Shown piece by piece: positions 11,458 through 41,883 of a stretch of DNA of 64,000 nucleotides. Position 1 is the stretch's first letter. The number at the start of each line of letters is the position of its first letter. Position numbers and translations under genes: made by a program. The notes below the pieces were generated by a model that did no database searches, had not been told where the DNA came from, and saw only the letters and a list, made by a program, of their open reading frames with translations. This DNA comes from Acidobacteriota bacterium. Lineage in GTDB: Bacteria; Acidobacteriota; Terriglobia; Terriglobales; Acidobacteriaceae. The DNA lies in assembly GCA_021846275.1 (NCBI GenBank), contig JAJZBZ010000002.1, forward strand, positions 62,001 to 126,000. Direction: 5' to 3'.

Positions 11458-11694
11458 CCATCCGCGTGGCGGACTCGCGCGCGGATGAATTCACAGCCTT
11501 CGGATATGGACTGCGTTTTGACGCTCAGAGGATAAGCCGGAACTGTGCAACCACGAACGCATTCTGTGCAACGGAACCGCATCCATTTGCAGGACTCCCG
11601 TGCCGACCGTGCTACACTGCGGGTATTCAGATCGCTGAAAACAAAATGCCTGACAATTTGGCCGCTGCAAAAGTCCGACAGCCTGGGAGGGAAA

Positions 11695-12534
11695 ATGGGC
11701 AAGGTTGGCTTTGGGGTTAAAACTCTCTACAAGACTGCATTCCAATCTTCCGAGTGCCCTTACTGCGGCAGCCGTGAAACGACCCTCGTTGAACGCAAGC
11801 ACATGATCCTGCAACTCAGAAAATGTGGACAATGCATGCTTTCGTTCCGTTTTCCGAAGGATGAGTTATCTGAAAATAATAGCTTTTATCAAAATGCTTA
11901 TCGCGAAAGTACCGTTACCGACCTCCCAGCCACGTCAGAGCTACCCGGGCACATCAAGAACAACTTCAGAAATGTTGGCCGCGACCTCACCGACCACTTG
12001 CAAACCATAAAGGCCATCGCACCTTCTGGAAAACTCCTGGATTATGGAAGCTCCTGGGGTTACTGCGTTCACCAATTTCGCGATGCGGGCTATGATGCTT
12101 ATGGATTTGAGATATCACGAACGCGAGTCGAATATGGTCGAAAGATGTTACAGGTTGAACTCAGCCACTCCGTTGAAACGTTTGCGGATGCTTCTTTCGA
12201 TGTCATCTATTCGGCTCATTGCCTGGAGCACATTCCAAATCCCGCCATTCCGCTCGTTCAATTCGCGCGCTTATTGAAGCCTGGCGGTCATTTGTTCATT
12301 TACGTTCCCAACTGCGGCGGAGCGGAAGCACGTAAATTGGGTGTTCGCTGGGGTCCGATGATCGGCGAGAAGCATGTTCTAGCCTTAACTGCGGAGTTCT
12401 TTCACAACAACTTGCCAAACTATGGTTTTGAAAACCTTTGTTTTGCCAGTTCACCTTACGCTTCTGCACCGCAACGTTATGAGTTATCCGCGCTGGAAGG
12501 CGAGGAATTGCTCGTGGTCGGCGTTCGAAGTTAG
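11695..12534 (+). CDS. Zinc-ribbon class I SAM-dependent methyltransferase
   Basis: A protein of 279 residues. The N-terminus carries a four-Cys zinc-ribbon (C21PYC24 and C44GQC47). A Rossmann methyltransferase domain follows with motif I LLDYGSSWGY (about residue 114), the acidic strand end YGFEIS, and DVIYSAHCLEHIPNP/LLKPGGHLFIYVPN. Such CxxC-headed enzymes are common in polysaccharide and natural-product gene sets, often as C- or O-methyltransferases on sugars; the substrate is not evident. The ATG at 11695 follows GGGAGG. Base composition is clearly AT-richer than its neighbours and it sits between an IS remnant and a repeat element, so it was probably acquired. Confidence 0.82.
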   Translation: MGKVGFGVKTLYKTAFQSSECPYCGSRETTLVERKHMILQLRKCGQCMLSFRFPKDELSENNSFYQNAYRESTVTDLPATSELPGHIKNNFRNVGRDLTDHLQTIKAIAPSGKLLDYGSSWGYCVHQFRDAGYDAYGFEISRTRVEYGRKMLQVELSHSVETFADASFDVIYSAHCLEHIPNPAIPLVQFARLLKPGGHLFIYVPNCGGAEARKLGVRWGPMIGEKHVLALTAEFFHNNLPNYGFENLCFASSPYASAPQRYELSALEGEELLVVGVRS

Positions 12535-12581
12535 GAGAGTGCATTGTATTTCAACAAGCTCCTGAAGAATAAGTCGGGAGT

Positions 12582-12761
12582 TTGACTGAATTGTCTGCGC
12601 TGCCAAACCCAAAGCATCTGATTACCGAACACGTCCCTGAGCCTCAAACTTCGGCTCTGATAGTCGCCCTGCAGCGCTGCGCTCAGGAGCAGCATCCGGA
12701 GTCAATCGTCGGTGCCGGTCTCCGGCAGTTCCGTGCGCGGCTCGGCGAAGCCAAATCCTAG
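12582..12761 (+). pseudogene. Unidentified gene fragment ending in the repeat element
   Basis: Sixty codons from a TTG read LTELSALPNPKHLITEHVPE... and QEQHPESIVGAGLRQF, with normal amino-acid composition. I do not recognise the family. No good Shine-Dalgarno is present, so it is probably the 3' remnant of a larger gene. Its TAG stop (12759-12761) overlaps the first bases of the inverted-repeat element. Confidence 0.4.
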
Positions 12762-12871
12762 AGCGTGTTTCCTATATGCCACTGTGACTTCGTCGGAGTG
12801 CGTCAGCCCCGCTTCAGCGGCGGGTCTGATACGGGTCGTCTCGGCCTACGCTTATTTATGAAACACGCTCT
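12760..12871. repeat. 112-bp terminal-inverted-repeat element, copy 1
   Basis: It is bounded by perfect 12-bp inverted repeats, AGAGCGTGTTTC (12760-12771) and GAAACACGCTCT (12860-12871). The interior contains TCAGCCCCGCTT and GCGGGTCTGAT, shared with a second copy at 41300-41411. No protein is encoded. The size, inverted ends and dispersed copies resemble a MITE. The left end supplies the TAG stop of the preceding fragment. Confidence 0.8.
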
Positions 12872-40899: not shown

Positions 40900-41213
40900 G
40901 GCGCGCGCCACGCGGCATCGGTGGCCGCTCCCGTTGGTTGCGGGTGAGGTTTGGAGGTCTGTGAGGACGCGGAATCGATGATTGTTGGATAAGGGTATAT
41001 TATTCATAGGTTTGAGCGGTTTTTTGCGGGTTACTGGTTTGCTATTAACCCGGTTACCCCCCCAGGGGGGTGGTATTAATTTTCCTGCCAACAGAAATCT
41101 GGCGAAATGATTACCAGATAGTAATTATTCCGTCGGCCCGGATCGCGCGGTTGCGGCGCAGGCCCGGTGTTGGAATTGCAGTATGGCATAAAGGGTGGTA
41201 ATTGCATGCCATT
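40900..41213. repeat. 0.31-kb dispersed repeat module, copy A
   Basis: It starts with a REP-like unit (GCGCGCCACG...GTGGCCGCTCCCGTTGG, 40903-40945). Then come an AT-rich stretch with TATTATTCA, the motif TTACTGGTTTGCTATTAACC, the G/C hairpin CCCCCCAGGGGGGT, TTTTCCTGCCAAC, GGCGAAATG, and finally CAGTATGGCATAAAG with AATTGCATGCCATT. The same blocks in the same order occur at 46479-46792. No protein is encoded. Confidence 0.8.
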
Positions 41214-41229
41214 GCATGGAGCAGCCGCG

Positions 41230-41276
41230 CGCCCGGCGCGCCACGACCGTTTGTGGCGCTCGCGTTGGTCGCGGGT
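41230..41276. repeat. REP-like unit directly after module A
   Basis: GGCGCGCCACGACC and TTGTGGCGCTCGCGTTGG repeat the REP-like unit found at 40903, 46479, 49043 and (inverted) 63831. Module A is therefore flanked by the same unit on both sides. Confidence 0.65.
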
Positions 41277-41299
41277 GGAATGGGCTTGGCCTGTTCCTG

Positions 41300-41411
41300 G
41301 AGCGTGTTTCCCATCTGCCTTTGTGGCTTCGTCCTGATTCTTCAGCCCCGCTTTGCAGGCGGGTCTGATTCGGGTGATCTCGGGTTTCATTTCGTTTATG
41401 AAACACGCTCT
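41300..41411. repeat. 112-bp terminal-inverted-repeat element, copy 2
   Basis: Ends are GAGCGTGTTTC (41300-41310) and GAAACACGCTCT (41400-41411). The interior shares GGCTTCGTC, TCAGCCCCGCTTTG, GCGGGTCTGATTCGGGT and TTTATG with copy 1 at 12760-12871. Its right end supplies the TAG stop codon (41412-41410, minus strand) of the PIN toxin gene. Confidence 0.8.
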
Positions 41412-41883
41412 ATGGATTTCGCTTCAGGAAAGCTGCCTTTATGGCTGGGGACATTCGGAAGTTGCTTTGTTCCAGTTTGCCGAGTGCCTGGCGGAAATCG
41501 ATCTTGCCCAATCTGGCTCCCCGCTCCAGAATCCCAAGCGTTCCGCGCACCTCCAGATGGAGGTTTTCCGCCTCGCGTCGGCCGTCGGTTTCATCGAGAA
41601 GCACGGTGCTGATTCCAAGCTCCAGCGCCAATTGAATGGCCTCGCGTTCGCCGATATCCAGTTTCATCAGTGCGGGGCCTGGTGCGGATGCAACGGTGCG
41701 CACTTCCAGCCACGCCGGGAGATGGCTGATCCACTGCTGTACTTTGGCGGGGGTTTTGGGATGTTTCAGTTCCTGAAAAACGGCTTGTGGAATCAGCACC
41801 TCGCCAAAAAGTGCGGGCAACAAATCCACTTCGTCAATCAGTACGAGGTAATTGAGAGGTGAGCTATCGGCAACAACGATCAT
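41410..41883 (-). CDS. PIN-domain toxin (DUF3368-like)
   Basis: A protein of 157 residues. The PIN-fold acidic residues are visible: VVADSSPLNYL (Asp6), the Glu of AVFQELKHP, and DIGEREAIQLALE with VLLDETDGRREAE. This is the DUF3368 type of VapC-like ribonuclease. Its start overlaps the antitoxin stop by 4 bases (ATGA), the usual antitoxin-first order. The stop codon overlaps the terminal inverted repeat of the adjacent element, so the last residues (FLKRNP) may be altered relative to homologues. Confidence 0.88.
   Translation of the reverse strand: MIVVADSSPLNYLVLIDEVDLLPALFGEVLIPQAVFQELKHPKTPAKVQQWISHLPAWLEVRTVASAPGPALMKLDIGEREAIQLALELGISTVLLDETDGRREAENLHLEVRGTLGILERGARLGKIDFRQALGKLEQSNFRMSPAIKAAFLKRNP

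Follow-up and report, generated by a model that had tools for sequence, protein, structure and literature searches.

A short IS5-type inverted-repeat element of Acidobacteriaceae that is concentrated at gene 3' ends and mostly re-forms the stop codons it enters

The stretch of DNA considered here (referred to below as the window) comprises 64,000 nucleotides of contig JAJZBZ010000002.1, from an acidobacterial genome of 3.34 Mb in 13 contigs. As originally predicted from the sequence, it contains two related elements, which carry no gene, lie in the same orientation when aligned and share a mean column identity of 80% (flanks included); their coordinates, and those of their neighbours, are collected in Table 1. 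The prediction had described perfect 12-bp terminal repeats, and this is correct for copy 1, whereas at copy 2 (left end GGAGCG...) the repeat is perfect over 11 bp; the twelfth base differs there, and the outermost A of the 12-bp repeat is target DNA lying outside the element.

Table 1 The two copies of the element in the window and the features adjoining them.
Feature	Position	Strand	Remarks
Methyltransferase ORF, left neighbour of copy 1	11545..12534	+	Methyltransf_23, E=2.5e-19; ends 226 bp before copy 1
62-codon open frame closed by TAG	12573..12761	+	Coding score -5.4, no Pfam match; no recognisable gene
Target TA, left edge of copy 1	12759..12760	.	Reads TAG with the element's G; far side TC, no matching duplicate
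Copy 1, 110-bp MITE	12761..12870	+	Ends GAGCGTGTTTC / GAAACACGCTC
Copy 2, 111-bp MITE	41300..41410	+	11-bp perfect ends
TA at right edge of copy 2	41411..41412	.	First two bases of the stop codon (minus strand); far side 41298-41299 reads CA there
PIN/DUF3368 gene, 157 aa	41410..41883	-	TAG stop common to gene and copy 2

A TAG is indeed present at one edge of each copy (12759-12761, and 41412-41410 on the minus strand), and in both cases it had been taken to close the adjacent reading frame. For copy 2 this is so, the frame being a genuine gene whose product matches positions 1-45 of the 46 in the DUF3368 profile, up to residue 155 of 157. At copy 1 the frame closed by the TAG was rejected as a gene, its coding score being negative and Pfam giving no match, and copy 1 is intergenic; the two insertions out of two that were thought to end a reading frame therefore become, for genes, one out of two. 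Nor do the two TAGs share an orientation, as had been supposed, since the one at copy 1 adjoins the left end of the element and the one at copy 2 its right end. The flanks of copy 1 gave no match among those listed for the other 14 genomes of the genus, with 20 candidates scored per genome, a depth at which a missing match is weak evidence.

Some further features of these surroundings may be recorded. The methyltransferase ORF to the left of copy 1 has atypical codon usage (score -26) and was possibly acquired. The left flank of copy 2 (41201-41278) is a separate dispersed repeat of roughly 70-80 bp, found at 15 further places in the same genome and many in other genomes of the genus (again with 20 candidates scored per genome), while positions 41053-41074 form a terminator-like palindrome, GTTACCCCCCCAGGGGGGTGGT, followed by ATTAATTTTC.

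The element is far from confined to the window. In its own genome there are 8 places with exact pairs of ends, 14 blastn matches and 29 single exact ends, and across a public genome collection ends at the right spacing occur in 34 stretches, 30 of them from records titled Acidobacteria, Acidobacteriaceae, Acidobacteriales or Terriglobales; the four matches outside the Acidobacteria (L075, L077, L082 and L083) were discarded, their interiors being unrelated. A covariance model built from 32 copies gave 135 rows, which come down to 105 places once 30 rows on the opposite strand are discounted; these lie in 10 of the 15 genus genomes, and most rows fall in G008 (44), the assembly of which is 86% complete. 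For counting purposes 96 distinct copies were used, after removal of six shared insertions from 102 (among them L258, which has a TGA at its edge); exact duplicates (L058 twice, and L079) had been removed earlier, and the partial copies L013 and L021 were also left out. Eight of the 105 places were scored later and lie outside the 96, one as the counterpart of L235 and seven as weak or partial matches, although one of these seven, L297, has a gene's TAG exactly at the element edge. One degenerate copy occupies the same site in two genomes (L103/L288 in G013:C23, and L019 in the window's genome), i.e. it has been inherited vertically.

In the 32 aligned copies the length is 109-111 bp, too short to code for a transposase, and the terminal 11 bp are almost invariant, although it should be noted that the patterns by which 29 of the 32 were collected themselves require those ends. 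A short sequence (within about 100-400 bp) without coding capacity, with terminal inverted repeats, target site duplication (see below) and many dispersed copies has the defining features of a miniature inverted-repeat transposable element (MITE). The class comprising REP/REPIN sequences with their RAYT, taken here as tetranucleotide-tagged palindromes of 20-40 bp mobilised by a tyrosine transposase without duplication, does not fit, as judged on the structure of the element, which has terminal repeats and a 2-bp duplication.

The link to a particular transposon family comes from longer elements with the same ends. Of 200 family genomes searched for a 14-base pattern of the ends, 30 contained it, and among the 200 there are three exact inverted end pairs 889-905 bp apart (counting the TAs), together with a fourth having one end mismatch. 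These four (L116, L117, L118 and L128) are elements of 885-901 bp, flanked by TA on both sides in every case; their ends have 12-17 bases in common with those of the small element (GAGCGTGTTTCATAAAT at the longest), one L128 end being mismatched. They resemble the small element in these end bases and in the TA duplication, and differ from it in length and in having transposase open frames, so the likeness is one judged on ends. Membership of the IS5 family was assessed on L118 and on a fragment in the window's genome: in L118 two open frames match NF033580 (IS5 family transposase; 101.9 and 126 bits, against a cut-off of 110), DUF4096 and DDE_Tnp_1, while contig C4 begins inside an IS5-type transposase, of which positions 1-207 retain a 61-residue C-terminus (NF033580, E=1.6e-14, below the whole-protein cut-off), and then exits through TTATGAAACACGCTC|TA. 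Because its ends are common to IS5-family transposons, the small element is taken to be a MITE of the IS5 kind, and from this likeness of sequence it is probably moved by an IS5-type transposase. An intact autonomous element with such ends was looked for in the window's genome and not found, fragments at contig ends being all that occur there; a relative of the C4 transposase is present in 4 of the 15 genus genomes, and none was found in the 86%-complete assembly of G008, the genome richest in matches to the small element.

A second type of end (GAACTCATCTC / GAAGTCATCTC) is seen on small elements in G001 and G006 (L265, L270, L279, L282, L287 and L290). The window's genome also holds another IS5 relative with different ends (GAACCCATCTCATAAA), resembling those of the copies in G001, G002 and G006, and the second end type resembles the ends of an IS5 relative of this genome other than the C4 transposase, at C11:541918-542337 (L136 1481). 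Small elements and transposases thus seem to vary together.

Insertion takes place at a dinucleotide, which is duplicated and is mostly TA in a (Y)TA(R) context. Equal dinucleotides flank 40 of the 96 copies, as against 20 on average and 30 at most when right flanks are shuffled; by kind these are 22 TA, 6 AA, 6 TC, 2 CA, 2 GA, 1 GG and 1 TT. Even for pairs other than TA the flanks are equal in 18 of 38 (shuffled mean 4.8, maximum 13). Two empty sites in relatives bear this out: at L020 G013 reads CCTCCGGTAA where the window's genome reads CCTCCGG[element]GGTAA, the duplicated GG being single in G013, and at L015 the duplicated AA is present once. IS5 targets are written YTAR. Of the TA/TA copies 13 of 22 read YTAR, and for those lying outside stop codons the figure is 9 of 17, compared with 207 of 1422 non-coding TA sites (P=2e-4), while C-AA-R is the reading at all six AA/AA copies, in agreement with CA/TAG/A, the IS5 consensus; the target is thus IS5-like (CWAR/YTAR).

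In the remaining 56 copies a matching duplicate is absent, in a manner that is not random. TA stands on one side alone in 36 copies (e.g. L060, L072, L245, L247, L248, L274 and, in the window, 41298-41299), and in 13 of the 36 the far side reads CAG. An insertion at a TA|G target would create CTAG at the far edge, and this tetranucleotide is scarce in the window, with 28 occurrences on both strands where 97 would be expected, a 3.5-fold deficit; loss of CTAG may be linked to very-short-patch repair, and our guess is that the CAG flanks are mutated CTAG. As a separate observation, the right flank of L061 (query 1508-1628) belongs to another dispersed repeat of about 120 bp, present at dozens of places in G008, G012, G014 and G002 (with 20 candidates scored per genome), into which this copy seems to have been inserted.

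The consequences of such a target for stop codons were followed by scoring 43 distinct discovery copies, and then 53 distinct ones fetched afterwards, with a gene model that had been trained on codon usage in the window. As a rule the element begins with G at both ends, so that a TA standing before it reads TAG. The pattern originally noticed is real: counting the copies that end a reading frame shows an exact stop at TA|G or TA|A in 6 of the 43 discovery copies and 11 of the 53 later ones, or 17 of 96, closing 19 gene ends, since two (L275 and L287) lie between convergent genes and each closes both. In addition, discovery copy L074 forms a T|GA stop at its edge. A further case, L011, at first taken to close a frame of 397 codons, was given up, the gene lying on the other strand according to the coding model. 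Pfam matches were obtained for 17 of the 19 proteins ending at these stops (the exceptions being those at L242 and L247), and at several sites the C-terminal domain is complete (RecR_C 24/24, GerE 57/57, FGGY_C 197/198).

What had been proposed is that the element gives its neighbour a stop codon, which in its general form would mean that it lands near gene 3' ends and truncates them. A few cases look like this: the transposase at L074 loses the 8-10 residues by which its relatives are longer to the TGA formed at the edge, the gene at L060 is two codons shorter than two relatives, and of the four relatives of the L014 gene two are six codons longer (ends at -1, +6 and +6, with one frame lacking a stop in the stretch read). 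Elsewhere in the native-stop comparison, which covered copy 2 together with L010, L072, L078, L060, L014 and L074, relatives mostly stop where the element-bearing gene does. All six relatives of the L010 gene stop at the exact residue (TGA, TAA, TAG, TAG, TAG, TAA), as do all six sequences compared with the RecR gene at L072 (from G001, G003, G007, G009, G010 and its own genome); for L078 the native stop is exact in two of six relatives (G013 and G014), the other four ending between -3 and +3 codons away. For the gene at copy 2, the best five of 19 relatives (L173, 78% identical, to L177, with L176 having an internal stop) end at the same residue, with TGA, TAG, TGA, TGA and TAA, and more distant ones end either there or some residues away.

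Two further lines of evidence bear on the same point. Where a stop copy retains intact TA/TA flanks (five copies, seven gene ends), the reconstructed empty site has TAA or TAG in frame at all seven ends, while in the other 12 stop copies the far side reads NAR in 11, as expected if a TAR duplicate had lost its T. The reading frame itself is also informative: there are 24 gene ends that run into an element, and 19 of them show the register TA|G (or TA|A), in which random insertion into coding sequence would place one third, or 8 (P=5e-6). Truncation as the general cause was therefore rejected on the grounds of the relatives' stops and the frame register; already largely refuted, it deserves hardly any credence. 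Empty sites at which the neighbouring gene already ended, which the original prediction had itself named as contrary to its claim, are what was found, and we conclude that the element mostly preserves stop codons, by re-forming them, rather than supplying them, the genes having for the most part ended there already in relatives.

The suggestion that the element inserts at, or is kept at, gene 3' ends fared better. After four copies too near the end of a locus had been left out, 48 of the 92 remaining have a called gene 3' end no more than 100 bp away, compared with 20-24% of the TA sites that are non-coding or in stop codons, and copies flanked by a 3' end only outnumber those flanked by a 5' end only by 40 to 10 (P=3e-6 unweighted, 2e-4 weighted). 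Stop codons make up 3.7-4.8% of such TA sites, or about 7.7% after weighting for target context, and the probability of finding 17 of 96 copies in them is 2e-6, 0.001 or 0.02 for nulls of 4.7%, 7.7% and 10.6% respectively. The last of these allows for missed genes: the coding model overlooks genes of unusual codon usage (the methyltransferase at 11545-12534 is an example), with the result that non-coding TA sites are over-counted and these P values are rough.

Taken at face value, such counts could mean that the transposase steers towards gene ends or stop codons, for instance by sensing transcription termination or supercoiling or through a longer target, instead of the pattern being left by selection. 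A local control was made, for which, as for the 3'-flank test, target weights were derived from 17 copies. Among all copies within 100 bp of gene ends, stop codons take 17 of 49, where 24% (unweighted) to 32% (weighted) would be expected (P=0.06 and 0.41). Restricting attention to near-end copies that still have TA on a side raises the share to 17 of 31 (P=0.0002 unweighted, 0.008 weighted), but this figure is biased, because selection preserves the TA of a stop while others decay. A strong preference for stop codons was accordingly dropped; the excess is one of gene 3' flanks in general, and hits in stops can follow from the target sequence alone. Purifying selection can also explain the contrast between 3' and 5' flanks, and active seeking of gene ends seems to us rather unlikely, so that we infer selection to be what lies behind the enrichment.

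The explanation that we favour, and hold to be highly probable as a whole, is thus of an IS5-type MITE whose transposase would insert it at a dinucleotide, most often TA with (Y)TA(R) as its context, and duplicate that dinucleotide. A TAA or TAG stop codon is just such a site, and insertion after its TA would leave TA|G on the gene side, re-forming the stop in place with the protein unchanged; since the protein is unchanged, such insertions would be kept, along with others in gene 3' flanks, while those in coding or upstream DNA would tend to be lost.

It might instead be that the copies are kept for some function at the RNA level, as a terminator or a 3'-UTR stabiliser, and their folding gives this idea some attraction. 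The two window copies fold strongly on the forward strand (z about -4.6 and -4.2), the central palindrome is kept through paired, two-sided changes (in 11 of the 32 sequences at one pair), and the forward-strand RNA is the more stable in 50 of 53 standard copies (mean -48.1 vs -40.8 kcal/mol), a strand difference that inert DNA need not have. Against this, the terminator stem that had been suggested as a possibility finds no support: at least six T in the 10 bases beyond an end occur in 5 of the 96 copies, and terminator-like matches are at chance level (2 vs 1.1, and 2 vs 1.7, in shuffles), so that an intrinsic terminator (a GC stem with an immediate T-tract) was rejected. A known RNA family was likewise rejected, Rfam at its gathering threshold giving nothing in the window besides a tRNA. 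An orientation-specific 3'-UTR element was rejected as well; relative to the gene closed, stop-codon copies lie in the same orientation in nine cases, in the opposite one in six, and between convergent genes in two. An RNA-level role for the element therefore appears quite improbable, and the IS5-type MITE filtered by selection remains the preferred account.

Some comparisons with known systems are useful. MITEPsy1 of Pseudomonas syringae pv. phaseolicola, as described in passages of PMC3189936, is 100 bp long, has no gene, has inverted ends and is assigned to IS5 with a question mark; its target is CTAG or YTAA, sequences that contain a TAG or TAA stop. It is therefore like the present element in size (about 100 bp), in lacking a gene, in its inverted ends and in its stop-containing target, but it differs in having a 4-nt duplication and other ends (GGAAGGTCTGAAAAAGCC). 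IS5 of Escherichia coli, according to the relevant part of PMC11677980, has the target consensus CA/TAG/A and a bias towards intergenic AT-rich DNA; it is a full-length transposon with a 4-bp duplication, whereas the element here has no gene and a 2-bp duplication. The example of QMITE2 in Coxiella burnetii, as an excerpt of PMC5896051 presents it, concerns a MITE at a gene 3' end: enhC is extended by the in-frame insert, and in another strain has its stop just before it, so that QMITE2 extends a protein where the element here re-forms the stop codon. Among the matches listed from open-licence papers none deals with the element itself or with insertion into stop codons, the one paper listed for the latter subject being on IS1111/IS110.

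The element thus represents a new family, though its kind is commonplace, and its effect on stop codons can be checked. It has become possible to test whether stops are preferred by IS5-type target choice before selection acts. One could go further and suppose that the (Y)TA(R) target, with a stop on both strands, and the G (or A) ends have been tuned together, the concentration at 3' ends then being a transposition strategy beyond the residue of selection. We think this doubtful, but if it were so the lineage could move through the stops of conserved genes and leave the proteins as they were; in two cases it closes convergent pairs. For annotation, a TAG at the edge of such an element is to be read as a re-formed stop and not as truncation. 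More generally, with relatives as controls, it is seen that a transposon can silently occupy the last codon of real genes, among them those for RecR, a cytidylyltransferase, a decarboxylase and regulators.
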